This document shows positions 1 to 20,074 of a DNA stretch of 20,074 bases, in pieces. The notes below the pieces were generated by a model. The model had not been told where the DNA came from. It saw nothing but the letters and a program-made list of their open reading frames with translations, and ran no database searches. The position numbers and the translations under genes are program-made. Source of the stretch: a virus; IMG/VR virus record IMGVR_UViG_3300025759_000934, positions 1 to 20,074 of that record; one strand, 5' to 3'. How positions within the stretch are numbered: position 1 is the stretch's first letter; each line of letters starts with the position of its first letter.

Positions 1-1187
1 AATATAGGACTTGCGCTCAGTTGTTCTGTTAAATCATCACTTAGTTTTCAGATCTCAGCTAAAATACTATTATTGTTCTCTAATATTGTTTTATTAGATC
101 ATATTCATGGAACTGCTTTTATATCTTTTACAATATCTAACTCTTGTTTTGTTAATCATACTTGTCTACCACTAAATATTCATCATTCAGTCACTTTTCA
201 TTTACTTATATCTGAAACAGCCTGTTTTTTATTTGCAATAGGCTGTATAAGTTCATTAACAAAATCATCTGTTTTTTTCTTTACACTTTTCTTAGCAGAT
301 TCCTCTAACACTTCTCCAACTCATCCTATTCACTTTCCTACTGTTTTTGTTCCAAGTCATCATATAGCTCAAATAGGAGCAAAAGATAATATATTTCAAA
401 TTGATTCTAGTTTTCTTGCTTCTTTTGGGTTTTCCTTAGCAAAGTCTTGATATGCCTCAACAGATGTTTGTAAAGCTTGTAATCATTGCTGTCATATATC
501 AGATTGTAATAATTTTGTTCAGGCTGTTCAAACTGCTTCTTTTATAGGTTCTTCTATAAAATCTGGTGTTATAGCACTTAGTCATTTACCTAGTAAGTTA
601 AATCATTGCACTACTCATTCTCATATAATATCTCAAAGTCCTCATGCTACTTGTCATGCTACTTCCAGTTCTGTTCAATATCATGGAATCAATACCTCTG
701 CTGCTGTTCTTTCTGTAGTAAATGCTTCTTTTATCTTTTCTCATCTTTCTAGTAATTTAGATCATAATCATTCCCTATCTTCTGAAACCTTATCATCAAT
801 AAATTGTGATTGAAAATCTTCTAAACCTACAATTGTAACTCAATCTTTAGTAATTTGTTCTCAAAATCAATTTAATAACTCTTCATCTGATATTCATTCA
901 TATTCTCAGGATGCTTTAGCATTATCTATTATTTCAAAAAAGTTCTCTTGACTTATTATGGTATCTTCTGGCTGTCAGTTTTGTTGTACTAAATTCTGTA
1001 TAACTTGTTCTGTTCATGTAACTCATTGTCAAGCTTTTATATCTTCTATTTGTGTTTCAGTAGCCTGAGAAAATCCTCAAGTTAATTCTACTTCAGGTTT
1101 TTCAGGTTCTTGACTCATTAGACTAGGGTCTTCTAGTCTTGTTGGGTCTTTCTTAAAATCTATTCATATATCAAAGAAATCTGCCAT
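1..1187 (-). CDS. Phage virion protein, C-terminus beyond window
   Basis: About 395 N-terminal residues are visible, starting at ATG 1187, 2 bases after the stop of the CHAP protein gene. The C-terminus is cut off by the window edge. The first ~140 residues are acidic and soluble. Residues ~150-300 are rich in Gly, Ala, Ile and Leu (for example VAGGLGDIIGEGVVQGFNLL and SIGNILSFAPIGAIGG), resembling membrane-active or flexible stretches in internal virion or tail proteins. No catalytic motif is visible. Almost all glycines are TGA, so the standard code chops the gene into fragments. Its place at the end of the structural block supports a virion role. Candidates are an ejected internal protein or a tail protein, but no family is identified. 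Confidence 0.75.
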
Positions 1188-1189
1188 AA

Positions 1190-3901
1190 TTATTTATTAG
1201 GATTAAAGTTTCTCCAGTCAAATACTTTCTTGTTTTGGTATGAAGCATAAGCGTCTGTAACTGATACACTACTTGCTTTAGTAGATTGTTTGGGTACTTT
1301 TCATTGTAATTCTCATTCAATTACTTCTAACTCTTTATTAATTTGTCTTAGTTTTCATTCAAATCAACTTGTATCTACTCAACTTCTTGCTAAGTCAGTA
1401 AGATTTGTTTCTAATCATCTCTTTACTAGTCTTAGGGTCATTCCTAACATAGCCCTATTAACATCTTCTGTTTGTGTTAGATTTGGTACAGTTTGCCTAT
1501 ATAGTTCGACATCAGCTTCTGTTAATACTCACACTTCTCAATACACTCATCTAGCTAAATTTGGAATAAGTGAAGTGATTTGCGCTTTTAGTTTTTGAGC
1601 AGTGACATCATAAGGGTCTTTACTTCTTAATAATCACACAAAAGGTCAAGTTCATTCTCAAAACATTCATCATGTTCATTCTGTAATAGTTTCTTGTATT
1701 TCTCATAATGAATTTAAGACTGCACTAAATTTTCTTATTTCTTTATTATCAGTTGCACTCATATCTTTTCATCATTTACTATATGCAATAACCTCAAAAG
1801 GATCAGCATTAGGGTCAGTGAATACTTTATTTTGTGCTTCAACTATTGCTTTAAATTGAGGGTCATTTTGTCTTTTAGCCTTTTCACTAGCAGTTAAGCT
1901 ATTAAATACACTTAAATCAGATATACTAAAAGAAACTTCTTTCTGAGTTTCAAACCTGCTTAAATCAACAAAACCACCATCACTATTACTAATTTGAGAT
2001 ACAGGTATAGAGTATATATTCTTTTTACCATCTCATTTTGCATTCCAGTCTGTTATTTCCACCATTCAAGTAGATGGATTATATCAACTAACTATTCAAA
2101 CATGTCCATTTTCTCAATATGTACCCTCTGTTGTTGGATTCCATACAGCCAAACCTCATACCTTAGGAGTTTGGCTATTGATATATTTTTGTTTAGACTT
2201 GTAAGTATCTCCCATTCTAATTCAAGTAACATTAGATGCATTTAAGTAGTTATTTACTGCTTCTCAGCATTGGTATCATGGTGTTTTACTTCTACTTTTA
2301 TATGTTTCTACAGCAGATATTCAGTTTTGAACATTAATATTAGTATTTAGATTATTCTGTCAATTAACTCAATATGAAAAGAAGTCTGGTTTTCTTCAGT
2401 CATCATACATTCTTAATACTTCAAATCATCCTTCTTTATTCTTACTTACTGTATCAGAAAATCACTTTTGTTTTGTAATTCATACTACTTCTCAAGTATT
2501 TGATAGAACAGGATTTGCTTTTCAATCAACTAAGTATAACAAGTTACCATTTCTATCTGTTTGATATACTCATTTCTTATTCATTGCTTGGTACTCTCTT
2601 TCATTCTCAATAAGAGTTGTTTTAAATGCATTAGCTCTATTCTCTGCTTGTATTTTACTTTGTTCTTGAAATTCTAATAAAGCTATTTTATCCATTCTAG
2701 CTCTATCTGTGTTATATTGTTGCAAAGCAGTAGTATATAATTGTCTTTGTTGACTATCTTCAAACTGAGCTATTTGTACTTCTCTGTCTAAATCTCATTT
2801 TAAATCATTATAAGTACCTAATTTAGCATTATATTGATTAATTAATGTATTTTTTTCTCTAACAATATCCTTTCTTCTTCTTCTGATTATAGCATTTTGA
2901 GTAGGTGTATCAAGTCTATTAAATTCACTTCTAACATCTTCTTCTAAAATGTCTAATTCATCATCTATTTCATTAATCTCATTTTGTAAGCTTTCTAATC
3001 ATTCTCTAGTAGATTTTAATTCAGGATTATTTTTAGCTTCATCTAGTTTTTTTCTTAAATCAAAACTAAATAATGAGTTTAAGTTATTAGTTATAGCATC
3101 TAATGATAAAACATTATTATTATCAGTTGTAAAGTCTGTCTTTTTAGTAATATTTAGTTTATTAAACTGTTCAAATCTTCTTCTTTGAGCTTCTGGTAAA
3201 GAATTATATTGTTCACTTCATATAACTAAAGCTCAGCTTTCTGCTGCAGCTCTCATCTCATCATTTGTAGCTCAGTTATATTTCTTAAAGAACTCTACAT
3301 CTGATTTTTGTTTGAATCTTGATTTAACTATACTTGTAAAATCCCCTCTTAAAGATGGGTTATTTGTACTTAATTCTTTAGCTAAATCTAAATTTCCAGA
3401 ATCTATAGCTTGTGTAAATGATGTTAAAGCTTTTCTATTAGCTTCTTCTTGTTGAGCTGTTTCAGTTTCTTTAATAGCAAGTTGTTTTGTTTTGATATCT
3501 TCAGCAGTTTCTACTTTCTCAGCTATTACAGGTGCTTTTCTTTCCTCTTCAATTCTTGTGATAATATCAGGTTCAGCAACTCATTCTTCTCTTAATGCTT
3601 GCACTCTTTTAATTTCTTCTTCTCTTTTTCTTCTTTCTTCATTTACTGCTCTAATATCAACAGGTTCTTCTATAGTTGGTGTAACTTCTTCCTCAGCTAC
3701 TGCTACTTCTGGAGTAGTTGGAGCTTCTGTGGTCACTACTCATTCTTGAATAGGCTCTAAAGGAACTGTAGCTTCTTGTGCTTCTACAGATGTTTCAGGA
3801 GTAGTTACCTCTGGAGTAATTGCTGTTTCATCTATCTTTGTTTTAATTTCTTCTGCTTCTGTTGCTCAAGCTCCTGTTGTTATGTTATCTCAGTTAGCCA
3901 T
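1190..3901 (-). CDS. Large virion protein with CHAP peptidase domain
   Basis: 903 residues with TGA as Gly. Residues 1-110 are a Glu/Thr/Pro-rich low-complexity segment. The middle (~330-480) is charged and helix-rich, probably coiled coil. Residues ~535-640 look like a CHAP (Cys/His amidohydrolase-peptidase) domain: PGYQCGEAVNNYL with candidate nucleophile Cys545, then PKVGGLAVWNP, GENGHVGIVSGY with His600, and EITDWN with Asp618/Asn620. CHAP domains cut peptide or amide bonds in peptidoglycan. The large non-enzymatic flanks and location among tail genes suggest a virion-borne lysin that opens the wall during DNA entry, rather than a free endolysin (inference). The C-terminal ~250 residues are unassigned. 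Start ATG 3901 follows a 50-base spacer. Confidence 0.85.
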
Positions 3902-3921
3902 AATCTTTAGTTATTTATATT

Positions 3922-3949
3922 AATATAATCATTTTATCTATAAAGACAA
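3922..3949 (-). promoter_or_regulatory. Candidate promoter for the CHAP protein gene
   Basis: On the minus strand TTGTCT (3949-3944) and TATATT (3927-3922) are 16 bases apart, a fair sigma70 match, about 20 bases upstream of the ATG at 3901. The spacer is so AT-rich that chance matches are likely. Confidence 0.3.
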
Positions 3950-3951
3950 GT

Positions 3952-4431
3952 TTATTTATATGCTGTTATCATTAGGAACACATCTGCTGTACTATCAGTA
4001 AAATTTAATTCTATTCAGTCACTTATAAAAGTATTATGATTTGCTTCTGTTTCTCATCATCATGGTTGGTTAACATGAAAAACTCTTAATACTCCTCATG
4101 AGAATGAATTACTTTCTCAATCTGCCATCTGAAATGTTCTTTCAGTAGTTCAATCATATAATCATATACTTCATGTTATATCAAGTGACAATCATTGACG
4201 CCATGCAGTAATACTATAACTAGATGGAGTAAATCCAAATCAAGTAAACTGTTGTAATCAAGTTCATACACTTGCAGCTCTTGAAAAGTTTAATGCTTTC
4301 ACTCATCATCAAGCACTAGCTCATCTTACACTTACATTTCAATCTAACTTCTCAGGTCATAATCAAGGAATGTCTGATTCAAAGTTTTCATCTGGTAAGA
4401 AATCTGGTTTAAATTCTTTTTCTGTTGCCAT
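3952..4431 (-). CDS. Small virion protein, decoration or tail-fibre type
   Basis: 159 residues, no catalytic motif. The central part (TGFGFTPSSYSITAWRQ, then GSIGLYDGTTERTFQMADG) has the beta-strand and Gly-rich pattern of small phage capsid-decoration or tail-fibre proteins in which a GFTP segment is followed by a D-G-T-T loop. It ends in a hydrophobic strand, VFLMITAYK. Glycine is encoded by TGA in 20 of 22 cases that I count, an extreme bias. The ATG at 4431 overlaps the stop of the preceding gene by one base (TAATG), which suggests translational coupling. Its structural role rests on context and general composition. Confidence 0.7.
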
Positions 4432-5861
4432 TAGTCTTTAATTATTTCATAAACTATTTTTAATCAATGGAATTTTGGATTTCAACTTACTCTTGTAAAA
4501 TCTATTCTAAAATTTACATCTGTCCATTCTTTAGTGTGTTCAGAGATTATTGTTCTTAGTGAATCTCATTCTTGGTCTATTGTTCTTATATCCTCATAAG
4601 CTCATTGATCATAACTAGCACTTAATTTAACAGTATTATTCTCATCTGTTCAACTAGTAGTAATATAGATTCTTTTTAATTTCTTTTTAATTAATCTATC
4701 TCATCAATCTACTATTGGTAGTATCATATATCAAGAAGTTTGTTTTGTCCCTCAAATTTCATATTTTACTATTTGTTCAATTCAATCTATAGCTACTCAT
4801 ATAAATAATGTATCTAATCAAGGTCATTGAAAGCCATATAGGCTTGTTATTATACTAGATGAGATAGGGTTAATAGGGAAAACTTCTTGAAATGCATCTC
4901 AGAGTCATCTAACTTTGTTTCAGAAACTCCATAACGCATCATAAGTTCCATTTTCATTAATAAAATAGATGTTATCTCATATTCTTCATAATTGAGTTGG
5001 TCTATCCATTCTAGTTTTAAATTTAGGAATGGTTAATCTAGGAGAATCATATTGAAATCATATAATAGGAGCTGAATATCCAGAAGTTATATGTAAATTA
5101 GTTTGAGTTGAATTAAATCAAGATACCATAAAGTCAGTTTGTCATTTATTCTTACTTCATCTTATAAAATCATCTATTTTATAGGATTCATTAACTCATC
5201 AAGCTTCAAATGTCCAAAATGCTACTGTTCAATCACTAGAGTATACTTTAAACTGACTTCCTATTTTTTCTATTCACACTATAGAATCTGCAAATAAATC
5301 ATAAGTGGTTACAGCATCATTGATATCTAATGTAATAAGCTTTCCTCAAACTCAGATAATTAATACTTGGTCATTAAAGTTATAAACAGGATATTTACTT
5401 CTTAAAGTTCAATCTGGAAATGTTCAAGCTGATGGTGTAATAGTTTCTGTTACACTTGATATAGATGTATTTGTTTGATCCATTTTACCAACTCTGATTT
5501 GTCATGTTCAAGATGGCCTAATAAAATAAACAAATCATCACATATTAGTTGCATTTACTACAGCTCTTCAATCTGAAAACGTAAAATCTGGAGTATCATC
5601 TGTTCAATCTGATTTATAAACTACTCAACTATCTCAAGCTCAAACTGCTGTTCTATTTCATCAAGTGTCTTCTACATAAAACCAACATAGAATATTCTTA
5701 TCTCAAGTAGTAACTAAAGAAGTATATCATGCATCTAGCTCAACTGAATAAGTCTCTTTATTTAAATCTAATCAAGAACTATACAAAACCTGATTGGATT
5801 TTGTTTGATAATCATCTTGAGCTATTCATTTAAAAAATCATTGGAATTTTTGTATTGGCAT
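4431..5861 (-). CDS. Tail or head-associated structural protein
   Basis: 476 residues, not matched to a named family. It is a beta-rich protein with repeated short blocks such as FTFSDGRAVVNATN, DGTLRSKYPVYNFNDQ and SDGTVAFWTFEAGG. Aromatic residues and D-G turns recur at fairly regular intervals, as in beta-propeller or fibre-like phage tail proteins. No signal peptide, membrane segment or enzyme motif is visible. It starts at ATG 5861, 2 bases after the adaptor-like gene, and ends in a one-base overlap with the 159-residue gene, so these genes appear co-translated. Context suggests a tail nozzle, stopper or fibre component (inference). Most Gly codons are TGA. Confidence 0.75.
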
Positions 5862-5863
5862 AT

Positions 5864-6568
5864 CTAAGTTTTAAGATTTATTGCATTTGGTAGTATTGCT
5901 TCAACAGGATTATTATACCTGTCTTTGATATTACTAATCATTTGAGTTAATTTTTGATTGAATTCATTAATAGAATCATTTTTCTCATTTGTTAATCCTT
6001 GCTGACTATATATATACTGCTTCATTCATACTGATAGAATTTGATGATATCCTCTTAAATCACTATTTCTTGGGAAGATAGTTGATTCGGCACCTCAAAG
6101 AACTAAATCTTGTAAAGTTATTGTGGATTGTACTCTCATTCATGCTTCAACAGCTTCAGTAGGAGCTGGGTATATAAATATACTTCAATCTTTTATATCA
6201 AAAAATCATTCATCTGTACTTAGCTTATTATTAATTCTTCATTCAGATGTTTTATAGCTTGCTAATGTATCTGCTTCTATTAATGTACTAAATTCATCTG
6301 TAGACTTCCATTTTACTTCAACTCTTTGAATCTTATTCATTCAGTTTGTAGTTGCTGTAGCTTCATTAAAAGTATATTCATTTTGATTTAATATAGTATC
6401 TGTTGTAAAGACATCCCAAAAATAGTCTTCATTTATATCCTCTATAATCCTATTAGCAATAGTATGATATACTATATTCAGATATCTTAACGCTTTTGTA
6501 TCTGTTATTTGTATATCATCTGTATGAGTAATATCTCTAGATAGTTCTATAACTGAATTAACATCCAT
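5864..6568 (-). CDS. Probable head-tail adaptor (P22 gp4-like)
   Basis: 234 residues, mostly helical, with a central beta segment containing GFFDIKDGSIFIYPAP. The 'D-G-x-I-x-I-Y-P-x-P' pattern, followed by an acidic helical tail, recurs in head-completion or adaptor proteins of short-tailed phages that dock under the portal. Its place just downstream of the major capsid gene fits. Residues 1-75 contain no TGA, so this part stays open in the standard code. After Asn75 several TGA codons occur, for example GMNKIQ, GFFDIK and GGAES. The ATG at 6568 is the first after the capsid terminator and has no Shine-Dalgarno sequence. Family assignment is by pattern only. Confidence 0.65.
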
Positions 6569-6659: not shown

Positions 6660-7610
6660 TTAAGTATTAGCACCTAAGCTTGAAGCAGATTCAACTCTAT
6701 ATAGAGCTTCCTCTTTAGTTATTGCTGAAGCAAGTCTTACTTTACCTCAAACAGATAACCTTTGGTGTAATGGATCTGCTGTACCTGCACTACCTAGTCC
6801 ATTGATAAATGTTTCCATTCATCCAGACATAACAGTAGCATAAGCATCTCTACCTACAACATAAGTTGGGTAAACATCAACAGTACCACCAGCACCACCA
6901 TCAGCAAAGAATTGAACATTAGAAGATGCAACAACTCTTGCACCAAATAACATACCCATTTCTCATTTAAGTGGTTTTCTTACTTGTGAATCAGTATATT
7001 TATTTAAATCAATAAATGTACCTATACCAGATTCTTGTTGTAAATCATAAGCAACATCTGGATGCATTATAGCAACATATGCTTCTCCATCAAAGAAAGG
7101 AGCATCATTACTTTTTAATTTAGATACAGCTTCTGCTAATTTAGCAGCAGTTAATGTATCAGTAGCATCAACAGTTACTCTTGATGTAGCATCTCATCCA
7201 TAGATAACATTTGTACCTGCATCTATTGCAGCTTGGATTACTTGATCAGCTTTATTAGCTAAATCTCTTCATAATTCAAATGCTGCTTCTTGTACAGCAT
7301 CAACAGGAGCATCAGTTAGTACAACATCAGATAAAAGTGCAAAAGAACCATATTGATTTAATGTTACTTCAACATTTGTTAAAGAGAATGCAGTTTCAGT
7401 TGGAGTTACTCATTCAGTTAATTGAATTGCTGCACCATCTTTATTGTCAACAGTTGGGAAAGTATATTTATTCATTCCAAATGGTAATTGTTTTACCATT
7501 CAAGTTTGTTTGAAAAATAATGCTCTTTCAAAGTTTCTGATAGCTTCTCTTTGGATAAATTCTCCTAAAGCACCAGAAGTCATTATATTTCAGGTTGTAG
7601 TAGTAGCCAT
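6660..7610 (-). CDS. Major capsid protein, N4-gp56 family
   Basis: 316 residues, HK97-fold shell protein of the N4-gp56 type. Family-like blocks are QLTEGVTPTE (64-73), TLNQYGSFALLSD (83-95), AYVAIMHPDVAYDL (177-190), KGEMGMLFGARVV (215-227), VVGRDAYATV (251-260), GLGSAGTADPLHQR (271-284) and YRVESASS (304-311). Gly in LTEGVTP and KGEMG is encoded by TGA, where relatives have Gly, which is strong evidence for code 25. Glycine usage is unlike the neighbours: I count 8 TGA against 23 GGN, mostly GGT. The scaffold gene lies 40 bases upstream and an intrinsic terminator follows directly. The ATG at 7610 has an AT-rich leader without a Shine-Dalgarno sequence. Confidence 0.93.
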
Positions 7611-7650: not shown

Positions 7651-8214
7651 TTATCTTGCATTATTAAATCCTGCATCTTGAAACTCAGCAACAAGTTTTG
7701 CTTTTAAATCATCATCAGAAATATCAGCAACAGTTTTTGGTTTTCTAATTGAAGAAGGAGTATTTCATGCAACACTATATTTATTAGGATTGCTAGGTTG
7801 TGTAAATCCTATTCCTGCTATAGTAGCTGCTTGTTCATAAGTTAAGCTTGGATGTTGTTCTAAAGTAGATTCAACAGCCTCAAGATTTTCTTCTCAATAA
7901 GTTTCAAGGAAATTATTTCTTTCATTTGCTTTCAAGTCATTCATTTTACTTTCAGCTATTGCTTGCTGTATTAATGCTTGTGCTTTCTCTTCTGAGAATT
8001 CTTTACTCTCAGCTTCAGCTTTCCACTTTTCAGCTTCAGCTTTCCACTTATTCTTTTCAGCTAATATTTTAGGTACATTAGATTTACCTTTTGTAGTAGC
8101 CTTAGTGTCTTTTGATTCTTCAGTTTGAGTTTCCTCTACTTCAGTTTCAATAGTTTCTTCATCTACTGTGTCTGCATTTATGCCTGCATCTTGGCTTTTA
8201 ATTTCTTCTGTCAT
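7651..8214 (-). CDS. Capsid scaffolding (assembly) protein
   Basis: 187 residues. The N-terminal ~45 are very acidic and Thr/Glu-rich. Residues ~50-95 form a strong coiled coil with a repeated KWKAEAE unit. The C-terminus (SIRKPKTVADISDDDLKAKL) is a compact charged helix. This architecture and the slot directly between portal and capsid genes are typical of phage scaffolds that template shell assembly inside the procapsid. No protease motif is visible, so the maturation mechanism is unknown. Only two glycines are TGA (TYGEEN, VAGNTP), against five GGN, similar to the capsid gene. The first 106 residues are open even in the standard code. Confidence 0.8.
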
Positions 8215-8614: not shown

Positions 8615-10516
8615 TTATTGTGTAGCAATATCTGCTAGACTAGCAGCTCATTGTTCTCATCACTGCATTATTTGAGCATTTGTAACTTGTGCAGCAGTTG
8701 CTCATAATACTCATCCTCATTGTTCTGGCTGTGCTTGTTGTATATTTTGTCAACTTAATATCATTGCATCCATTCTATCTCTTATAGCACTATCTCTTGC
8801 ATCTGTATCCATTGCTTTTCAATAGATAACAATATAACTCATGTGGTCCTCTTCAAGTTGTTCTATTTCTCAAACATCCATATTTCTATTAAGAAGTTCT
8901 AAATCTAACTTAGCTTTCATTTCTTCTATAGAAGCAGGAAATAATACTGAGATTTTATCTTTATCTATTCAATTAGCTCTTGCAATACTTCTTTTAGCAA
9001 ATGTTTTACTTATTTCTGGACTCTTAGGATCTTGAAGAACTAAATCAGCTATTACTAACAATCAAGCTTTTTCTTGCTCTTTCATAGATTCCTCATCACT
9101 TTTATTGATAACTTTAATATCAATATTAGCTCAAGTATCTATATCTTTTCTCTTAACTGATTGTATAACATTACCAAAAGAATTTTGAAGCATTATATTT
9201 TTTTCTCATTTGAAAGGGAAAAATTCATAATAAGCTCTTAACCAGTTTCTCCAAAAATCTTTTTCTCACCATTGATTAATCTTATTATTAAGAACTAACT
9301 TAACATTTTGATTTCTTTGGATTCTTTGATTCTCTGTAGCTGTTATACTCTTATCTGGTGTTCATCATACTGCTCTCTCATCTAATCACATATCATTAGA
9401 ACCTTGTTGTCTAATAACTTGTGCCATATTAAATGCATCTTGCTTGATTCTTCCTCTCTCTACTTCTCTGATAGGATTAGGATTCTTTCTTAAATCAGCT
9501 CTAACATATTTTGGTCATTGAGTATGTTGTCTTAAGTCATTTAGATTTTTAATTGCATCTGTATCTACTAAGAATGTATCTCACCAAGCTTCATGTTCTG
9601 CTTTAATTCTATTTAGATTTAAGAATAATTGTTCTATTCTTTGTTTATCTTCTAATAAGTCTGGAACACTTATACCAAATGGGTCTCATTTAAAAGGTTC
9701 ATAATGATTGACTATAACAGGAAATTTAATCAGATTAGGGTTTTTCTTTTCTTCTTCATAAACTGGTTTAATTTCTTCAAATCTTATTAATAAGCTGTCA
9801 TCATTAGCTAATGTCACTAAATATTTTTTACCTTTTATTGTTGTATAATGATTATATATTCAATAAATAGGTTGTTCATTTGTTTGTGGTGTTCATCAAT
9901 TTACTTGTCTTGATTGTTGTATTTGGTTTCTTCTTCTTTGTTCTCTATCTGAAACACTAGGTTTAACTTTATCTACATTAAAATATACATCTGTAGTTAA
10001 ATCTCAATCATTTATTTCTAATTCAAAACCATGAAATCTATAATTATCTATATATCATAAAGGGTCTGGAATCCAAGATATTGGGTCTATACTTCTATAA
10101 ACAGGAACATCTCTAACTGTATCCCGATAATCAAAGATTCTTAATCATACACCATAAAATAACCTATTCCATTGAACATCATAGGTTAGTTTTTCTAAAT
10201 CCATTTCTTCATAGTCGAATAAAGCTAGATTATTATAATTATCTGCTATCTCATCATCTCACAGTTGTCTTCAAGAGAAATTAACAGTTATTGCATCTGA
10301 ATAATAAAGACTCATTAAAGTTAACATAGTAGAGCGAATAGTCCTTACATATACTTTATCTGCTTTACCTCAATCTTCAGCTATATTAGTATATAGTTTT
10401 AATCTTTCTAAAAATAATTGTCTCTTTTGGTCTACAAAGTTAACTCACAGTTGTTTCTCTTGTTGTACTTGAGTTATTATTGCTGATTCATCAATAGGAA
10501 ATCTTGATTTAGGCAT
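8615..10516 (-). CDS. Portal protein
   Basis: 633 residues, a size and position (directly after the large terminase) typical of the dodecameric portal through which DNA is packaged and ejected. Recognisable features are an N-terminal helical region (ADKVYVRTIRSTMLTLMSLY), RSIDPISWIPDPLGYIDNYR in the wing/crown region, PFKGDPFGISVPDLLEDKQR followed by a long helix (RIEQLFLNLNRIKAEH), GGTPDKSITATENQRIQRNQ, and a Gln/Gly-rich tail. The PxGIS-PDLL-D-Q and TA-E-Q-R patterns match portals of podovirus-like phages. The C-terminal ~50 residues are low-complexity Gln/Ala/Gly. Most Gly are TGA. Confidence 0.88.
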
Positions 10517-10582: not shown

Positions 10583-11857
10583 TTATATTTGTTGTGAAAA
10601 GTCAATAACTAATGGTTCTTCATATCGTTCAACTCGAGTTAAATCATTATAAGCTATTGCCATATATCTAAAAGCATCTGCTAAATGAGATGTCCAGTCA
10701 TGTTCTGGAGTATTTAAAAATATATCTCTTTTCTCATCATACTTTTGTTTATATAAACTTAGAGCTTCAATTAACTCTTCTGTTCTATCTTCATCAAACC
10801 ATACATTATGGAATATCTTACGAGCTGCATTAATTCAATCCATTATTCATAACTTTGGCAATACATAAACTCTACTTGTTCCAAATATATCTCTAACTGT
10901 TTCTAATCTAGAAGCTCATGTAGTTAGTTCTCTAACTTCTATATCATGTGGAAAAAAGAATTTATCTACTGTATATCACTTCTCTGCTTCTTTTTCTCTG
11001 ATTAATCTAGCATAAAATTCAAATCACTCTCAATTATGTTGGATGCAATCTATTATTCTTACTGTATTTCAATGTATTTGTACAAATATAATTGCCATAT
11101 AATCACTTATCCCCAAATCCCATACTGTATATACAGGAAGCAAAGGGTCATATAATCAAGCTTTTATTCTCTTTTCATCTCTAGCTCTATTTATCTCTTT
11201 AGTATAATATGCTCATTTAATTGCTGCTTCAAAACTACATTGGTATTCCTGTTCATATTCTTCATCTGTCATTTCATTTTTTGCTTCATTTAGTTGTTCA
11301 TTAGTTAATAATCAACTCTCGGAAGCTTTTAATAAAAGTGTATAATATTTAGGGTCTTTCTTTCAATTAGCATATATCTTGTAAAAGTTATTCTTTCATT
11401 TTGGTGTTCATATCCATAATACCCAACCATTATTAGCAAGTATCATAGGAAATACAATCTCTCAGTATATATTAGCAGGTTGTTGTGAATACTCATCAAA
11501 TACAACTCATCTTAAATCTAATCACCTTAAACTATCAGGATTATCTGCACCAAATAGTCTTATCTTACTTCAATTAAGTAATTCAACTATTAATTCACTC
11601 TCATTAGTCTTTGTATCTGGTATAGCTTTAGCAAACTTCTTTAATATATCCCAAGCTATCGCTTTTGATTGACGATAAAAAGGGCTTATATATCAATAAT
11701 ACCCTTTTGTGTTTAAAGCTTCATATAGTAATTTAGCTATTGCTACAGTTGTTTTTCAGGCTCTACGATGAACAACTAAAACATTATACTGCTTTGAGTT
11801 TTTTATAAATTCTTTTTGCCAATCTCTTAAAAATTTTAAATCTATTGTTACATTCAT
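10583..11857 (-). CDS. terL: Terminase large subunit
   Basis: 424 residues; ATP-driven DNA-packaging motor with a C-terminal nuclease. The Walker A-like motif HRRAGKTT is at 30-37 with Gly34 encoded by TGA. Walker B VVFDE is at 118-122, and the coupling motif WIGTPKGKNNF at 148-158, with both Gly150 and Gly154 TGA. The nuclease domain shows VWDLGISD, FFPHDIE and HLADAFRYMA, matching the acidic residues of the RNase H-like fold. Start ATG 11857 begins one base before the end of the upstream gene's stop region; an ATG further upstream at 11989 is in frame but would overlap the preceding gene almost fully. Together these motifs give the clearest evidence for TGA = Gly. Confidence 0.95.
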
Positions 11858-11858
11858 G

Positions 11859-12227
11859 TTAGTAAACTTTATTATTAATATCATCAAAAGCATTATATAA
11901 CTCTTTAGAAATTGTTTTTCAAGAGTGTGCATATAATGGATTGAAATATAATATTTTCTTACTATCTCACTTAAGTTTGAATTTCCCAATAAATCACTTT
12001 CTTTTTAAAAATGCCTCTAAACTTCTTTTGTTACTATCTGATATATTTATTCTATCTAGTGTAATTCTATTTTGTGAATCAAGAGTATCTTTTATTAAAC
12101 TTAAGTATCAATATTTTAATACTCATATATCATTAGCTATCTTCTCTGTATCTAACTCTACGTTTACTTTCATAAACTTATATTTTAGATTTATTAAATT
12201 AAATTTGTCATTTAAATAATTCTGCAT
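11859..12227 (-). CDS. Winged-helix-like protein; RepL-like or small terminase candidate
   Basis: 122 residues, first gene of the structural operon and directly before the large terminase. The C-terminal half (RSLEAFLKRKGFIGKFKLKG, then KILYFNPLYAHSGKTISKEL) looks like a winged helix followed by the 'NP...(S/K)G' element seen in plasmid replication/MarR-like RepL proteins. Position would instead suggest a small terminase subunit. A second helix-turn-helix protein at 12418-12789 competes for that role. Regulation of the late operon by autorepression is another possibility, since an inverted repeat overlaps its promoter start. DNA binding is likely; the exact role is not established. Confidence 0.6.
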
Positions 12228-13518: not shown

Positions 13519-13520
13519 AA

Positions 13521-13703
13521 TTAAAACTTATCTTTCTTATCAAGTAAAGTAAAAGTATTCTTAGAAGTGTTGTATGTATTCATTCTAATAGTATCAAGTT
13601 TGTCTATCATTTCTAATTGTTGGTTAGATATTTCAGCATTACTTTTTACTATTTGTTGTAGGTTTTCTATTATTTCTTTTAATAGGTTTGTTATCTTAAG
13701 CAT
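13521..13703 (-). CDS. 60-residue coiled-coil protein
   Basis: A single amphipathic helix with heptad-like Leu/Ile spacing (LLKEIIENLQQIVKSNAEIS) covers most of the protein. It contains no glycine and hence no TGA, so it is intact in either code. Function unknown. Small coiled-coil proteins of this type are common among phage genes of unknown role. The ATG overlaps a TATAAT sequence, which I consider coincidental. Confidence 0.55.
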   Translation of the reverse strand: MLKITNLLKEIIENLQQIVKSNAEISNQQLEMIDKLDTIRMNTYNTSKNTFTLLDKKDKF

Positions 13704-13733
13704 TATACATAAATTAAAAAATAAATCAAGTTT

Positions 13734-13994
13734 TTATGCGTAACTAATATTACCACTAGACTTTACAAAAGGCACTAGAGGTTGTGCTAATTCTAGGGCA
13801 TCTTGTTCTTCTAGGAAATCAAGAGATTCTTTTCCTTTAGCTTTGATTGTTTTAATATCTTCTTCAGATATAGATAATCAATGTTCAGCTTGTAGTCTTA
13901 CCTGATCAATTAGGTTTACAGTCTCTTCATCAAGAACATATTGGTATATATGATTGATAACAGAGATATCATCTGTTTCTATATGTGTTTTCAT
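13734..13994 (-). CDS. Small acidic protein of unknown function
   Basis: 86 residues, mostly helical and acidic (SVINHIYQYVLDEETVNLID, later ISEEDIKTIKAKGKESLDFL). One TGA read as Gly. No family recognised. It begins 9 bases after the stop of the zinc-ribbon ORF and is part of the same gene run. Confidence 0.55.
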
Positions 13995-14003
13995 AGGTTA
14001 TTC

Positions 14004-14174
14004 TTATATAGGTAAAGTACAGTCACATTTATAGCAATATCTCTTATCTGTCTCTGGGTCATATTCTACATCCTTTGTATTAATCACTTCTCAACACTTG
14101 TGACAATATAGTTGTCATAATTTAAGTGTGGAGTCTAAATCACTGACACCATTTCTAAAATCTTGTCTAGTTGT
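14004..14174 (-). other. Zinc-ribbon reading frame without a start codon
   Basis: This frame is open from 14174 to a TAA at 14004-14006. It ends with a clear zinc ribbon: LYCHKCGEVINTKDVEYDP and then RYCYKCDCTLPI, two CxxC pairs about 23 residues apart, the Gly being TGA. No ATG, GTG, TTG or ATT/ATA/ATC/CTG codon occurs in frame before the first Cys. The frame is -1 relative to the exonuclease gene, whose end it overlaps by about 40 bases. It may be made by frameshifting from the exonuclease, giving an exonuclease-zinc-ribbon fusion, by an unknown initiation mode, or reflect a one-base sequence error. No canonical slippery heptamer is visible. Confidence 0.5.
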
Positions 14175-14752
14175 TTATTTGTTTCTATAGTTTCTTTTTC
14201 TATTTTCTCATAGCACATTTTTATAATCCTTGCATCAAATAAAGAATTATGTTTCTCTTCTTCTCAAAACCATGATTCTTCTCATTCTTTTACAAACTCT
14301 TCTCTTGATATATCAGCATCAATTCACTTTATCTTAAATAAAGTACAAATATCAAAAGGAATGTAATACACATTTTCTGGTAGCTGAGGATATCAATCAG
14401 AATAATTAGATAATAAGGTATTAAATAGTACCCAATCATAACTTAGACAATCACTCCATATTTCAATGTATTCAAAATCTCCTAACCATTCAAGAAGTTC
14501 ATATTGTATATAAGCAGTATCTCCTTTTACAGTTGTTTCTTTATCTGATTTTATATTACATCATTCTCAACTAATAATAAGTTTATTTATTACATTCTCT
14601 TTTATCCAATCATTAACTTGATTTTTATTATAATCAGTAAACTCAGCATAAAATGTTTTTCAACATTCCGAAATTAATCAAATAGAAATTAATGTTGTAT
14701 TTTGATGTAATCAAGTAAATTCACAATCAAAAAAAATTTTAGTTGTTTTCAT
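14135..14752 (-). CDS. 3'-5' exonuclease, Rv2179c/RNase T-like DEDDh family
   Basis: 205 residues. The N-terminus [20 protein letters not shown] carries the Exo I acidic pair (Asp9, Glu11); GKTFYAEFTDY follows. SDCLSYDWVLFN supplies a motif II Asp, and the HNSLFDAR block (His168, Asp173) is motif III of DEDDh exonucleases. The overall pattern fits the 3'-5' exoribonuclease family typified by mycobacterial Rv2179c. Such enzymes trim RNA or DNA 3' ends; in a phage they could act in RNA turnover or nucleotide scavenging (inference). Gly in TGLH and SIGL is TGA, matching the family consensus. A zinc-ribbon frame overlaps its 3' end. Confidence 0.85.
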
Positions 14753-14779
14753 ATTCTTTTCTTTAAATATTAATATAAA

Positions 14780-14941
14780 TTAGTCAATAGGTCTTTTTTC
14801 TACATAATCCTTTGCAAAATTGTATAAATAGGCTCTTTTTTCTTTTGTCCAATTCTCATTATTTAATTGTAATCTAGCAATTAATAAATCTTTATAATAG
14901 TTACTTAAATATTCAAATCTTGTATATTTTATTTCTTGCAT
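14780..14941 (-). CDS. 53-residue protein of unknown function
   Basis: Starts MQEIKYTRFEYLSNYYKDLL and ends VEKRPID. Two basic/aromatic helices; no glycine and no TGA. No family recognised. It lies 20 bases downstream of a neighbouring small gene in the same orientation. Confidence 0.5.
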   Translation of the reverse strand: MQEIKYTRFEYLSNYYKDLLIARLQLNNENWTKEKRAYLYNFAKDYVEKRPID

Positions 14942-14961
14942 AGGTTTTTAATTAATAATTA

Positions 14962-15153
14962 TTATTCTGCTCCTCTATTAACACTTTGCATTTTATAAGT
15001 AGTTATATCTGTTTTAAAGTGTTCTGTTTTTTCTGTGAACATAAAACATCAAGTGTTTACAAGTTGTTCTATACTACCATCATCTCATAATAATTCTTCT
15101 ATTGCTCTATCACTAGCTCATTCTAAATCTATTTCTATTATTATTTTTTTCAT
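14962..15153 (-). CDS. 63-residue protein of unknown function
   Basis: Starts MKKIIIEIDLEGASDRAIEE, with three TGA-encoded glycines. A beta strand leads into a helix, then a second beta segment (CFMFTEKTEHFKTDITTY). The size and fold pattern resemble other small phage early proteins, but nothing specific is recognised. Confidence 0.5.
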
Positions 15154-15176
15154 AAGTCTTTTTTAGTAATTAATAT

Positions 15177-15530
15177 TTATTTGTTTAATAACTCTGGGTT
15201 TTCATAGATATTTCAGATAACTGTTCTAAATTCACAATCACTCTTTTGGCATCATCATCCCATAGAGAATTGAGCCTCATCTTCATCCCATTCAACAATA
15301 TGTATATTTGTTGTATTATTTCCCCATTCTTCTTCATTAAATTCAATCACATCTCCTTCATATATTTCTTTTCAGTTCTTATCTTTTAAACCTGTAAATT
15401 GTAGTACCTTTCAGTTTTCATAATTATATTCTTCAGGGAATCATTCATATTCTAAATCTCAAATACTCCAAGAACAACTCATTGTTTTAGTTTCATTGTT
15501 CCAAAATTTAAATTTTATTTCTCTTTCCAT
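15177..15530 (-). CDS. YopX family protein
   Basis: 117 residues with the full YopX family layout: REIKFKFWNNETKTM at the start, then [20 protein letters not shown] (44-63), a central hydrophilic beta segment, and the terminal TVIGNIYENPELL. The glycines in [10 protein letters not shown] and IGNIYENP are TGA where the family has Gly, giving another independent check of the code. YopX proteins are common in phages and prophages of many bacteria; their function is not known. The gene begins 2 bases after the stop of the upstream gene. Confidence 0.9.
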
Positions 15531-15532
15531 AT

Positions 15533-15802
15533 TTATTTATTTGTGTTAGGAGTTAATAAACTTATTTTAAATTTCTTATAAAAATATGTTCTATTGAATA
15601 AGAAAAGAAAATAGTTCCATCTTCATACTAAATCTTTTATTTCTTTTTTAACTTGCTTTAGCTTAGTAAAATATAAAATTGATTCTTCTAAATCCTTTCT
15701 ATAACAAAAAGTATAGGCTCAATAAGGATTTGCATGGTTTAACTCTTCTAGCCTTCTTGTAATCTTTATATATTCTATTATTTTAGTACTTAATCATTTC
15801 AT
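15533..15802 (-). CDS. Basic small protein of unknown function
   Basis: 89 residues, Lys/Arg-rich and helical (KIIEYIKITRRLEELNHANP, then LVGRWNYFLFLFNRTYFYKK). The hydrophobic stretch FLFLF is too short to be a clear membrane segment. The third codon is TGA. No family recognised. It is translationally close to the YopX gene. Confidence 0.5.
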
Positions 15803-15814
15803 AACTATCTATTC

Positions 15815-15997
15815 TTATATAATAAAATTAACAACTTTGATTAATCATATTAAACATCATATGTGATATAAAGTTCATATTGTGCTAATAAGTGCAATTC
15901 CTCTTGAAGCTCAACTATTTATATCATATTTCAATGATTCTGTAGTAAACCATATATTCATATAATATAATCATACTATAGGTATTAATGTTTTCAT
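15815..15997 (-). CDS. Small membrane protein
   Basis: 60 residues. One hydrophobic segment lies near the start (TLIPIVGLYYMNIWF), and a second spans the C-terminal half (GIALISTIGTLYHIGCLIGL), so one or two membrane spans are likely. Short phage membrane proteins include holins, but there is no supporting neighbour here (no endolysin gene adjacent), so function is unassigned. Confidence 0.55.
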
Positions 15998-16036
15998 CTT
16001 TTCTATTTATTAAGTAATAATCTAAGTAACTGCTTG

Positions 16037-16312
16037 TTAATTAGTAAATAATCTTTCAAACCAACTTCTTTTATCTTGTATAACTTTTATACTTGTTCTT
16101 CACTTCCATTTTAGATTCTCTGGTATATGTTGAATACTCCATATTTCTAAGTATCAACTTCCTTTTACCTTAGTAAACTTGATTCAATATTGTTTCAATT
16201 GGTGTAAGTAACCTGAAAATCTCCATCAGGCTATTTTATTAAGTTCTCTATTACTTAAACATTTTGCTCTCTCAAAGGCTTCTAATATTTTTATTGCTCT
16301 TGATTTATACAT
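16037..16312 (-). CDS. Small basic protein, possible helix-turn-helix
   Basis: 91 residues. The N-terminal half (AIKILEAFERAKCLSNREL, then KIAGWRFSGYLHQLKQYGIK) has the spacing of a helix-turn-helix followed by a winged segment; the C-terminal half is a beta region ending FERLFTN. Net positive charge fits nucleic-acid binding. No named family is recognised. It follows a 78-base gap that contains a candidate promoter. Confidence 0.5.
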
Positions 16313-16345
16313 AAAATAATAATTAATAAATAAAGTGATGTATAT

Positions 16346-16374
16346 ATACTAACATAATGTTGTTTTTATTACAA
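16346..16374 (-). promoter_or_regulatory. Candidate promoter in the recombination cluster
   Basis: TTGTAA (16374-16369) and TAGTAT (16351-16346) are 17 bases apart on the minus strand in the only sizeable gap of this cluster. It would drive the small genes from 16312 leftward. Moderate match in an AT-rich background. Confidence 0.35.
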
Positions 16375-16390
16375 GATATTGCAATTGACT

Positions 16391-16807
16391 TTAGTGTGAA
16401 TAACTTTCTAGTAAACTTTGTATCTCTTTAGGACTGTATTTACAGGCAATCTTATTATCACAAATAAACTTCCAGATGGTTTCTATATAGAATATAGTTT
16501 CTTTCTTTGTTAATTCACTTGTAGTTGGTTTCTTTGGTACAACTGTATGGAACTTTCCCATACTCATAGGTTTAGCTCAAAAGCATCATATAAGGAAAAT
16601 TTGCTTTACCCTTTCAGGCTGTTCTCACATATGTTTAGAAATCTCACTACATAATCATCTCAACATTTTTCTTTGTGTGTGTTTTATCATTTCTTTAGTC
16701 TCTTTGTCTGAGATAATACATATTAATTGCTTATCTTCTGCTTGTCTTTCAAAGTATTCAGTTATTTCTTTAAGTATTTCAGATGATGTTCAAGTATATT
16801 TAGGCAT
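16391..16807 (-). CDS. Possible NinB-like recombination protein
   Basis: 138 residues. The layout, with an N-terminal beta/helix region, a basic helix (MIKHTQRKMLRGLCSEIS), GKFHTVVPKKPTTSELTKKE and a helical C-terminus (YIETIWKFICDN), resembles NinB/ORF-type phage recombination proteins, where an S-(T/E)-x-(L/M)-T-K-x-E motif leads into a final helix. The next gene upstream encodes an annealing protein, and RusA lies in the same region, so a recombination role is plausible. Sequence support is weak; an uncharacterised nuclease-like family is an alternative. It starts 2 bases after the Rad52-like gene. Confidence 0.45.
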
Positions 16808-16809
16808 AA

Positions 16810-17334
16810 TTATTTATTATCAATTTCTATATCTTTTATACTTTGTCTAACTTCTTTATTTACTTTATATTTTTCTGTTAGTTTAGTGATTATCTCATTT
16901 GCTGTCTTTCATTCTTTAATTTGTGCTGTAATTCTATCTATATGCTTATCAAAGTCATTATACCAAGGTAAGTTATCATCTGCAACCTTCTTTCCTGTAC
17001 TACTAGGCTTAATATTATATAGGAATCTTCATAAACCCCATACAACACAAGCTCTTTTAAATGAATCGGATATAGCTCACTTTTCTTTCTCTATATTGCT
17101 TTCAGAACCTCAATCCCACTTTGTAATCCATTCTCAGTCTAGTTTTATAGAAACTCAAGCAAATAGCTCTCATCTATGTTCTGCATATTCTACTTTCCAA
17201 TTTTCTATACCACACACTTCATCAAGTCTATCTTGTGCCTGCCTAGCATCAATATATGCTAACTCTTTACCTCAAGGTCAAACCCTTGTTTTGTAGTCCA
17301 TAGGTTCTGCTAGTTTTTTTAAATCTATCTTCAT
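16810..17334 (-). CDS. Rad52/22-like single-strand annealing protein
   Basis: 174 residues. The core matches the Rad52/Rad22 and DdrA-like annealing family: AYIDARQAQDRLDEVCGIEN (26-45), GVSIKLDGEWITKWDGG (60-76), EKEKGAISDSFKRACVVWGL (82-101) and GRFLYN. These proteins anneal complementary single strands and promote phage recombination. Gly in DGE, EKGAISD and GLGRF is TGA where the family has Gly. Nine of the 14 Gly codons are TGA. The C-terminal ~60 residues are a charged helical tail. A NinB-like protein follows and RusA lies upstream in the same orientation, which makes a compact recombination toolkit. Confidence 0.88.
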
Positions 17335-17356
17335 AATTACATATTATTAAAATAAT

Positions 17357-17785
17357 CTATTTTTTCTTAGGCGTATAACTGAGTATTTGACTGTTCTTTA
17401 CTTCAACAGGTTCTATTATCTCTCAATCTTCTGTTATAATGCTTTCTCAGTTATCTGTTGCAACTTTTACTAGTTTTTCAATCTTTTTCATTTCATCTAA
17501 TTTTTCAGCTATTTGTAATTCTTCATATTTAGAGTTGTAATAAGCATTAGATTTTATATCATAAGTCTTTCTAATAGATATTCTAAATTCTTTATATTCT
17601 AATGGACTTTCTTCAACCATATCTCTAGTTTGATTCTCAATAAGTTTCAAAGCATTTTTAATAGTTCACTCAAAACTCCTAAGATATTTATAAGCTACAA
17701 TAGGGGATATTTCTCCATTTTCTATATCTAATAGTAAATCATTAATACTTAAAACTGATTTTTCTATATCTTGTAATTTTCACAT
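17357..17785 (-). CDS. Helical protein upstream of the annealing gene
   Basis: 142 residues, mostly one long charged helix (residues ~50-105), ending with a short acidic linker and a basic tail, LSYTPKKK. Codon 2 is TGA (MGKLQDIEKS). The location just before a single-strand annealing gene and the coiled-coil layout are reminiscent of Gp157-like or nuclease-inhibitor proteins of phages, but no diagnostic motif is present. Function unknown. Confidence 0.55.
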
Positions 17786-17793
17786 AATTATTT

Positions 17794-17982
17794 TTAGTTA
17801 GTAATAAAATTCTCATATAACATATCAAACAATTCTCAACTGTCTTTAACTAGCCAAGTATGTTTTTTATCCATTAAAGTAAATATATCTCAATTATCTA
17901 TTTCTGTAACTTCATAATCTAGTATAGTATCTCATACCTTTAGATCATCTATTGTATTTTTAATTTCTTTGTTTATTGTCAT
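17794..17982 (-). CDS. 62-residue protein, first gene of the recombination operon
   Basis: A compact beta-type domain: TIDDLKVGDTILDYEVTEID followed by IFTLMDKKHTWLVKD, resembling small SH3-like or beta-barrel folds in phage early genes. Three or four glycines are TGA. It is the first gene after the control region at 18000-18130. No named family. Confidence 0.5.
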
Positions 17983-18000
17983 AATATATAATATAAAGAA

Positions 18001-18029
18001 ATAATAGTTATATGGTCTTATGTTGTCAC
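18001..18029 (-). promoter_or_regulatory. Candidate promoter just upstream of 17982 gene
   Basis: GTGACA (18029-18024) and TATTAT (18006-18001) are 17 bases apart on the minus strand. It lies downstream of the hairpin at 18041-18096, so it would escape that terminator and give a short leader. Confidence 0.45.
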
Positions 18030-18040
18030 AGTGTTCCATA

Positions 18041-18096
18041 TATAATAAAAAGTAAGTTGTTTAATAGTTTTTTAGTTAACTATTTTGTAACTTACT
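18041..18096 (-). terminator. Intrinsic terminator or attenuator
   Basis: On the minus strand AGTAAGTT (18096-18089) pairs with AACTTACT (18058-18051), and inside it AATAGTT (18084-18078) pairs with AACTATT (18069-18063). A T-rich run, TTTTTATTATA, follows. It sits after the ribbon-helix-helix gene but also begins right at the expected start of the strong promoter at 18100-18128, so it may both end the upstream gene and attenuate that promoter. Confidence 0.7.
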
Positions 18097-18099
18097 CTT

Positions 18100-18128
18100 A
18101 TTGTACTCTTTTTTATTCTTAATGTCAA
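18100..18128 (-). promoter_or_regulatory. Strong promoter upstream of the hairpin
   Basis: A perfect TTGACA (18128-18123) and TACAAT (18105-18100) with the ideal 17-base spacing on the minus strand. The start is expected near 18093, inside the 5' arm of the terminator-like hairpin. The first transcribed bases include GTAAG, as at the late promoter. Confidence 0.75.
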
Positions 18129-18165
18129 ATCTTTTTTGGACTTTTTTAAATCCTCTCTGGACTTA

Positions 18166-18303
18166 TTATAAATTATGTACCCTCTCAAATTCTTCTAATA
18201 CTCTACTTAAAGCTCTTTTTCTACTTCACATATTAAAATATATCTTTGCTTTATTTAAAATGGCATATTCTTTTTCTGTTATTAAAACTCTTGTATCTTT
18301 CAT
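18166..18303 (-). CDS. Ribbon-helix-helix regulator (Arc-like)
   Basis: 45 residues: a short strand (TRVLIT), helix 1 (EKEYAILNKAKIYFN), a Gly turn (TGA-encoded) and helix 2 (SRKRALSRVLEEFERV). This is the minimal ribbon-helix-helix fold of Arc/CopG/MetJ-type dimeric repressors, in which the strand inserts into the DNA major groove. It lies between two promoters and just upstream of a terminator, a typical position for a phage transcription switch. Its targets are unknown; the GTAAG/CTTAC inverted repeats are candidates. Confidence 0.65.
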
Positions 18304-18334
18304 ATTGTGTTATTATATGTTAATATATGGCTAT

Positions 18335-18362
18335 AGTATATTTATTTTTGGTTTAATTACAA
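18335..18362 (-). promoter_or_regulatory. Candidate promoter of the ribbon-helix-helix gene
   Basis: TTGTAA (18362-18357) and TATACT (18340-18335) are 16 bases apart on the minus strand, about 30 bases upstream of the ATG at 18303. Confidence 0.4.
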
Positions 18363-18368
18363 ATATTA

Positions 18369-18893
18369 TTACATATAGAAATTCCTGACTAATTCTAATT
18401 GCCTTACTTTCTCCTTCCATTTATCATACTCTTGTAAATTATTTTTTGGTTTATCTATATCTTCAAACGGCAAATACACCTCTTTATTATTAATAATTAA
18501 CTTTAAACAGGGTAATCAATTCTTTAATCTTCTTTCTGCTTTTCTTAATATACTAATTCTTTCAGAATTATTTTTATACCATTCTTGTTTTTGTAATCGT
18601 TTTTCTTCTATAGTTTTATGAGTTTTAGGTCAAAATGGTTTATGTGATTTCTTTTCTAAATACATAAGTATTCTTGTTTTATAATAATGTTTCCACATAG
18701 CTTTAAATCTAACTACTTTCCTATTTGCCTTTTTGCTTCTTTCTTTATCCCAACAACTAGTACATAATCATCTTCCTTTATGTTTAAAATTACAAGTTTT
18801 ACACTGTTGACAAAAATCAAACTTGTAACTCCATTTATACTTTCAATTAGTTTGTTTAAAAAGTGTTCAAGTATGTCAATATTTCTTAGTCAT
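18369..18893 (-). CDS. Zinc-ribbon protein of unknown function
   Basis: 174 residues. A four-Cys zinc-binding module lies at 28-47: CQQC, a spacer with KHKGRGLC, then CTSCW, matching small 'C-x2-C ... G-(K/R)-G-L-C-x2-C' domains of HNH-associated and other phage proteins. The rest is very basic and helical (KVVRFKAMWKHYYKTRILMY, later ERLQKQ-like segments), consistent with nucleic-acid binding. No HNH catalytic histidines are visible, so a nuclease role is not supported. Its ATG overlaps the end of the RusA gene by 8 bases (ATGACTAA), so the two are probably translated together. Confidence 0.65.
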
Positions 18894-19254
18894 TTATATA
18901 TTCTTTAATTTCTATTTCTATTCTAGGTTTCTCTTTATCATAAAACTTTTCTACTGTTTGTTTCTGTATTTGGTTATCATCTTCCCAAACTATTCAAGAA
19001 AGAGAATCAAGAAGGATTTTAGAATAGTTGTCTATATCATGTTTTCTATGAGAATCAAAATATATTTTTATGTATGTTTCTATATCTCACATAAATTTAT
19101 CATATCACAAAAACTGTGAATATGCACACATTTTATATGTTTCTTTTAAATCTTTTCACTTCTTAGTCATATAGACTGTTGGGAATCTTCATCTACAAGT
19201 ATGCTTATATAGATGATTAGTAGACTCAGGCTTTCAAGGTAGTGTTATTTTCAT
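18886..19254 (-). CDS. rusA: RusA-type Holliday junction resolvase
   Basis: 122 residues. The diagnostic RusA core is RKHDIDNYSKILLDSLSG (70-87) followed by IVWEDDNQI (88-96), giving the metal-binding Asp73, Asp75 and Asp92/93 and a nearby Lys79. The family pattern also shows at both ends: LPGKPESTNHLY at the start and EKPRIEIEI near the end. RusA dimers cut four-way DNA junctions made during recombination and replication. All six glycines are TGA, including the conserved SGIVWEDD. The start ATG 19254 overlaps the end of the HNH gene by 10 bases. Confidence 0.92.
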
Positions 19255-19511
19255 AGTTTTTCTAAATAATTAATACAATCTTGCCTTATGCCTTGTCATT
19301 TACTACAAGAATGACATTCTCTATGATGATCAGCACAAATAGTTACTCACATTTCTACATTATTTCTATCTTTAGTATAAATACTTTGAGTACCAAAATA
19401 TACATGATGAAATTGTAAGTTTATATTTACTCAGCATATTATACAACACTTATTATCTCTTTCATATATAGCTTCTTTTGTTTTATTACGAAACTTTGCT
19501 TTATGCTTCAT
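19245..19511 (-). CDS. HNH endonuclease-type protein
   Basis: 88 residues. IYERDNKCCIICG (15-27) supplies a Cys pair, then QFHHVYFG (His35/His36), DRNN (Asn50/51) and ICADHHRECHS (His62/63, His67), ending GIRQDCINYL. This is an HNH nuclease pattern of the small phage type, with C-x2-C zinc ligands. Such enzymes cut DNA; roles range from packaging to homing. Reading TGA as Gly extends the protein by Gly-Lys past a TGA that lies inside the downstream ATGA, exactly where a standard-code phage would have stopped. Confidence 0.8.
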
Positions 19512-19513
19512 AC

Positions 19514-19681
19514 TTAATAGTTCATAATATTATATCATTGTTCTCTTGCCTTACTCATTAAATCTATTCAAGGCTTATCACTATAGATTCAGTATTTTAG
19601 TAGAGCTAGAGAGCAAGATTTTATATCTCATACTTTTCAGTCTACTTTTTCTATTAGTTTTCAGTTTTTGTATAGGTACAT
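19514..19681 (-). CDS. 55-residue protein of unknown function
   Basis: Starts MYLYKNGKLIEKVDGKVGDI; a short beta hairpin followed by a helix ending EQGYNIMNY. Six glycines are TGA. No family recognised. It lies 2 bases upstream of the HNH gene and 4 bases downstream of a membrane-protein gene. Confidence 0.5.
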
Positions 19682-19685
19682 AGTT

Positions 19686-19907
19686 TTATTTTAAGTTAAA
19701 ATCTTTTTTAAGTGAGTTTCTAAAATCAGGGACAAAAGATATTCAAAACAATATAACAAATAATGCTCTAAAGGGAACTCAATAATCTGTTAGTGAGTCA
19801 AATTCAAAAGCCATAAAGGAGATAAGAATATATAGTCATCAAGTAATTACCAGTGAAACTATTGTTGCTAATAGTAATTGTAATATTAATAGTTTTATTG
19901 TTTTCAT
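19686..19907 (-). CDS. Small membrane protein, two spans
   Basis: 73 residues. Hydrophobic segments at ~4-32 (LLILQLLLATIVSLVITGGL) and ~46-60 (FRALFVILFGISFV) flank a short acidic loop; the C-terminus is basic (RNSLKKDFNLK). Size and topology would fit a holin or another small phage membrane protein, but no lysis gene is adjacent. Confidence 0.55.
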
Positions 19908-19922
19908 AGTGTTTATTATTAA

Positions 19923-20074
19923 TTAATCTAAAATGATTTTGTGTATTTCTACTGCACAAGATGTGTTCATAGCTCTATCACTAAAGAATAAATCTCATCT
20001 TTTCCTATATCTTACATTCATAGCATCAGCAACTTCAAACTCTCAATTACACCTTGAATTATATCATTGTTTTT
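19923..20074 (-). CDS. Partial unidentified gene, 5' end outside window
   Basis: About 50 C-terminal residues are visible, including NSRCNGEFEVADAMNVRYRK and AMNTSCAVEIHKIILD before TAA at 19923-19925. Three TGA codons lie in frame. No family is recognised from this fragment. Confidence 0.5.

Follow-up and report, generated by a model that had tools for sequence, protein, structure and literature searches.

The window analyzed here (20,074 bases) comprises an entire IMG/VR virus record, with every gene on the minus strand (Table 1). Along this strand, in the 5' to 3' direction, a group of small early-type genes (HNH, RusA, Rad52/Erf-like, NinB-like, YopX and RNase AS-like) is followed downstream by the terminase, portal/connector, scaffold-like, capsid and late virion genes, and then by a CHAP-domain virion protein. 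It represents part of a tailed-phage genome, and its terminase, portal and HK97-type capsid genes, all three detected, place it in Caudoviricetes. The terminase open reading frame as called spans 10583-11989, with an ATG start likely at 11857. Near-identical contigs of 31 and 26 kb, along with several related groups, occur in the same collection. A megablast search of the phage collection with the window gave no match. One close relative has an unrelated-looking terminase of 512 aa in place of the original (L015:5452-6990), with the portal and capsid still about 82% identical.

Table 1. Features of the 20,074-base window, with their positions and the evidence for each assignment.
Feature	Position	Strand	Evidence and remarks
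Virion/tail-region protein, 5' 395 codons, running off the record end	3..1187	-	40 TGA of 49 Gly; no family match
Large virion protein (903 aa) with CHAP peptidase/amidase domain	1190..3901	-	Pfam CHAP E 2e-7; 47 TGA; homologues in code-25 relatives
Small virion-region protein	3952..4431	-	TGA = 20/22 Gly
Late protein (476 aa), in the place of a packaged-DNA stabilisation/tail protein	4431..5861	-	46 TGA; function from gene order only
Late protein (234 aa)	5864..6568	-	Kept across the clade
Major capsid protein	6660..7610	-	phrog_1357 E 1e-53; Pfam capsid; TGA 8/31 Gly, avoided
Scaffold-like protein, upstream of the capsid gene	7651..8214	-	Position; clade conservation
Portal / head-tail connector	8615..10516	-	Relatives match phrog_332, phrog_1216; 30 TGA, 1 CGG
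Sole in-gene CGG (portal codon 131), probably Trp	10124..10126	-	Homologous column 28/35 Trp + 5 Phe/Tyr
Terminase large subunit	10583..11857	-	phrog_2 E 9e-43; PF03237; 19 TGA
RNase AS / DnaQ-like 3'-5' exoribonuclease	14135..14752	-	phrog_2259 E 4e-51; PF16473
YopX-family protein	15177..15530	-	PF09643 E 3e-21; PDB 2qyz
NinB/Orf-like recombination mediator (weak)	16391..16807	-	phrog_72 E 6e-5
Rad52/Erf-like single-strand annealing protein	16810..17334	-	PF04098 E 4e-16; phrog_1097
174-aa protein without assigned function, also in the recoded phage contig of bin G080	18369..18893	-	42% aa; 78% DNA over 136 bp
RusA Holliday-junction resolvase	18886..19254	-	PF05866 E 3e-22; PDB 1q8r
HNH endonuclease	19245..19511	-	PHROG HNH families, E about 3e-7

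The nearest named terminases are those of the Pelagibacter phages HTVC106P and HTVC010P (38-39% identical), which share the order terminase-connector-scaffold-capsid; unlike the window, these phages and their relatives use the standard code, and in our searches at E 1e-5 the terminase was the only window protein with a match to them. The RNase AS-like protein showed ~52% identity to proteins of Enterococcus phages and of Bacillus phage AR9, and is nearer to named phages, over most of its length, than the other window proteins searched.

Gene calling with table 11 left almost no genes, the longest open reading frames being shorter than 150 aa, whereas calling with table 25, in which TGA is not a stop, yielded about 30 minus-strand genes that cover 90% of the record. 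The stops used by the 30 genes are TAA (25) and TAG (4), with no others. We counted 309 TGA, 105 GGN and 54 TGG codons in the genes of the window, TGA making up 75% of their Gly codons. A sequence-only reading of this DNA had placed in-frame TGA in all identifiable genes; we found it in 29 of the 30, the one gene without it being a 60-aa open reading frame (13521-13703). To avoid circularity, TGA was masked as X before the alignment to standard-code homologues. Gly was the most frequent residue opposite TGA (129 of 242, 53%, a 7-fold enrichment), the next being Ala with 18, and Trp was present in only 2 cases. In the same homologues, Gly stood opposite 134 of 217 GGN codons and Trp opposite 56 of 79 TGG codons. 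Since the Gly rates opposite TGA and GGN are alike, TGA behaves as GGN. In code-25 relatives, TGA is exchanged mainly with GGT and GGA, and the column log-likelihood over 140 TGA columns was +109 for Gly, −267 for Trp and −185 for Arg. These results firmly support that TGA encodes Gly rather than Trp, that is, TGA has the sense meaning that characterizes genetic code 25, and the table 4 reading (TGA as Trp) is refuted by the 2 Trp among 242. They also bear out the earlier proposals that TGA is Gly throughout and that TGG encodes Trp separately. Among the examples then cited, each said to fall where the family has Gly, two details are wrong: at the capsid TEGVTP site, Thr is found in 4 of the 8 homologues, and, in the YopX motif TGLKDKNGKE, the second G is encoded by TGA as claimed but the first is a GGN codon.

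A second REASSIGNMENT probably involves CGG, which occurs only once in the genes of the window, at portal codon 131. This column holds TGG, and hence Trp, in every code-25 relative first compared, near-identical contigs aside, and the score for this one column was +4.0 for Trp and −3.1 for Arg. This codon suggests, with good probability, that CGG is read as Trp in the window. The three CGA codons, two in the terminase gene (10634-10636 and 10625-10627) and one in the gene of the 174-aa protein (18597-18599, opposite Lys), lie opposite Lys, Arg and Lys in the nearest homologues, and two of their columns scored −4.5 for Trp and −0.6 for Arg, both terminase sites being poorly conserved. From these three sites, CGA looks like an Arg codon. 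The likeliest code for the window combines TGA as Gly, CGG as Trp and CGA as Arg. Because CGG appears to be Trp at this one site, plain table 25, the assignment made in the sequence-only reading, holds for TGA but is probably incomplete.

The same column inference was applied to the relatives. CGA came out as Trp in seven phage contigs, L180, L181, L182, L183, L291, L294 and L295 (+26.2 for Trp and −22.2 for Arg in L295), which appear to use table 37, with TGA as Gly; CGG has few informative columns there, but seems to be Trp where it could be scored. It came out as Arg in L193, L135 and L409, and the standard code was found in L184-L186, L190 and L308-L316. We infer four coding states among the portal relatives: standard; TGA as Gly with CGA as Arg; TGA as Gly with CGG as Trp; and TGA as Gly with CGA (and CGG) as Trp, that is, table 37. 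On a maximum-likelihood portal tree, obtained with a short search and SH-aLRT support only, and with two weak root branches, one change suffices for the TGA recoding and one for the CGA switch. The clade of the window, with six members, is nested in a larger one of 14 that includes table-37 phages (support 99), and therefore CGA as Trp is parsimonious in its ancestor; if CGA is Arg in the window, a reversal or a change of host is possible.

This nesting speaks for a full table 37 in the window, with TGA as Gly, both CGA and CGG as Trp, and an Absconditabacterium as the host. Against it stand the Lys, Arg and Lys opposite the CGA codons of the window and the lower Trp score of two CGA columns, which make this reading a possible but rather doubtful one. 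A plain table 25, in which CGG and CGA are both Arg and portal codon 131 is a true Trp-to-Arg substitution, is in our view unlikely. It would take a single transition (TGG to CGG) at the only CGG codon of the window, and CGG is Arg in most of the Gracilibacteria examined; however, in an enlarged set of relatives the column is Trp in 28 of 35 and Phe or Tyr in another 5, none of the 1,426 ordinary Arg-codon columns of the clade is as far towards Trp, and the sister phage L191 also carries CGG at a Trp column, in its terminase (+4.5 for Trp versus −9.3 for Arg, three columns).

ARAGORN and Rfam scans of the window and its near relatives were negative for tRNA genes. As no suppressor tRNA is present in the record or its kin, the phage would depend on a host tRNA-Gly(UCA). 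Genome contigs were scanned with a degenerate glycine-type pattern (anticodon UCA, Gly acceptor end CGC + U73), which returned 60 loci. Of 16 candidates examined with ARAGORN, 15 were confirmed to have a UCA tRNA, and their titles assign 14 to Candidatus Gracilibacteria and one to Patescibacteria; the program labeled these tRNAs 'SeC' because the bacterial code was used. In the genes of this Gracilibacteria-type host class, TGA is Gly. Genome G103, considered as a reference host for CGG, was uninformative, with 2 CGG in 21,324 codons. That TGA is Trp or, in a host with the standard code, a stop that a phage tRNA suppresses late in infection is scarcely credible: phages of the latter kind are known (discussed in PMC10746230), but Trp is practically missing opposite TGA, TGA is also dense in early-type genes (RusA, Erf, HNH), and the tRNA scans were negative.

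Homologues of the portal, terminase or capsid that contain in-frame TGA were present in a small number of host-class bins. Bin G080 includes a recoded tailed-phage contig (L413, G080:C107) with its own terminase, portal and capsid, which has in common with the window the 174-aa gene and the gene that precedes the terminase. Such contigs may have entered the bins as contamination. L135 is doubtful as proof of a host, since CGA is Arg in it and not so in the genes of its bin, G019; this difference makes it likely that L135 was misbinned. A search for CRISPR-spacer matches to the window in 353 genomes of the class, an earlier suggestion for verifying the host, found none, nearly all matches in the search looking like chance AT-rich hits, and no CRISPR-like arrays or repeats were found at the 12 best DNA matches among these genomes, an absence that is weak evidence. 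The lack of a phage tRNA, the tRNA-Gly(UCA) of Gracilibacteria genomes and the TGA-bearing homologues in bins of the class strongly imply a host of the Gracilibacteria/Absconditabacteria type, and a host from this group is probable. As CGA seems to be Arg, Gracilibacteria reported to have CGG as Trp are a better fit to the window than SR1/Absconditabacteria, in which both CGA and CGG are Trp; of the two groups named in the sequence-only reading, SR1 is thus the less suitable.

Other bins of the class showed different arrangements. In G004 (C2, C21, C49) and G079 (C2, C30, C38), terminase, capsid and portal homologues (L102, L116, L117, L433, L434) are on separate contigs of about 52-55% GC, and could be dispersed prophage remnants, a domesticated system or the result of assembly breaks. 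Terminase homologues L139 and L140 (G007 and G136, the former also with portal and capsid homologues) are free of in-frame TGA; they could be standard-code members, code-11-compatible relatives or contigs placed in the wrong bin.

We observed that the capsid gene avoids TGA, which supplies 8 of its 31 Gly codons, whereas in the remaining genes it supplies 301 of 383 (Fisher p 4e-9); the Gly codons kept are GGT and GGA, and the neighboring genes are TGA-heavy. Among the 16 phage groups in which a capsid gene was detected, 15 have a TGA share in that gene below that of the whole contig, the exception being L181; the relatives that avoid TGA in this gene include L010, L012, L178, L192, L191, L289, L182, L291, L193, L135 and L409. 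The bias was considered as a marker of table-37 hosts and dropped, as L182 and L291 avoid TGA too. Similarly, the ribosomal-protein operons had less TGA than other genes in 8 of 10 host-class genomes (loci L155-L164, genomes G001-G103), in some strongly so, with shares of 0.35 versus 0.72 in G103 and 0.01 versus 0.30 in G005; G001 showed no depletion and G080 hardly any. A recent transfer of the capsid gene from standard-code phages is an unlikely cause, because the identities of capsid (87/81/67/59%) and portal (83/82/66/60%) fall together. Slower or error-prone decoding of UGA at high demand is the simplest and most likely account, and the bias in capsid and ribosomal-protein genes points to a reassigned codon that still performs less well where expression is high.

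Taken as a whole, the data are best explained, with considerable confidence, by a tailed phage that infects a Gracilibacteria/Absconditabacteria host in which TGA is Gly and, probably, CGG is Trp and CGA is Arg. In such a host UGA would not be a stop, and a tRNA-Gly(UCA) would decode it; the phage, which has no code-shifting tRNA, would borrow that of the host. Drift of the phage genome would have made TGA its chief Gly codon, except in the capsid gene, where GGT and GGA would have been retained, most likely because UGA decoding is slower or less accurate at high demand. CGG would probably be Trp in the host, with CGA still Arg.

Phages and prophages of Absconditabacteria and Gracilibacteria that use code 25 have already been published (Liu et al. 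2023, PMC10746230), so that the earlier identification of a phage with TGA as Gly was right but not new. Like those phages, the window has dense in-frame TGA, a high coding density only with code 25 and a reliance on the host code; unlike them, its clade also includes phages in which CGG and/or CGA are apparently Trp. CGG is not mentioned in that report, and thus sense codons were apparently not tested there. In Absconditabacteria (SR1), UGA is Gly and CGA and CGG are Trp (NCBI table 37), and in some Gracilibacteria CGG is Trp (Shulgina and Eddy 2021, PMC8629427); UGA as Gly was shown by proteomics in a BD1-5 bacterium (PMC4032931). The reassignments observed here, and their inference from conserved columns, are the same as in PMC8629427, which dealt with cellular genomes, in contrast to phages with several code states in one lineage. 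In the open-access literature searched, we found no report of CGG or CGA as Trp in phages, nor any that highly expressed genes of these organisms avoid TGA, and we make no claim of priority.

The phage lineage appears to keep successive steps of genetic-code change. We lean slightly towards the idea that it followed a stepwise change in its hosts, from the standard code to TGA as Gly, then CGG as Trp and, in part, CGA as Trp, with members alive today at each step and the window as an intermediate in which CGG and CGA are split. If this is true, sense-codon reassignment in phages is a record of code evolution; as a virus must match the code of its host, a phage clade with several codes provides an independent and testable record of the order of codon reassignment. 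Pipelines limited to codes 11, 4, 15 or 25 mistranslate such phages, those with table 37 worst. Two further related phages, L301 and L306, have many CGA codons and almost no other CGN, with a mixed Lys/Trp signal at CGA.
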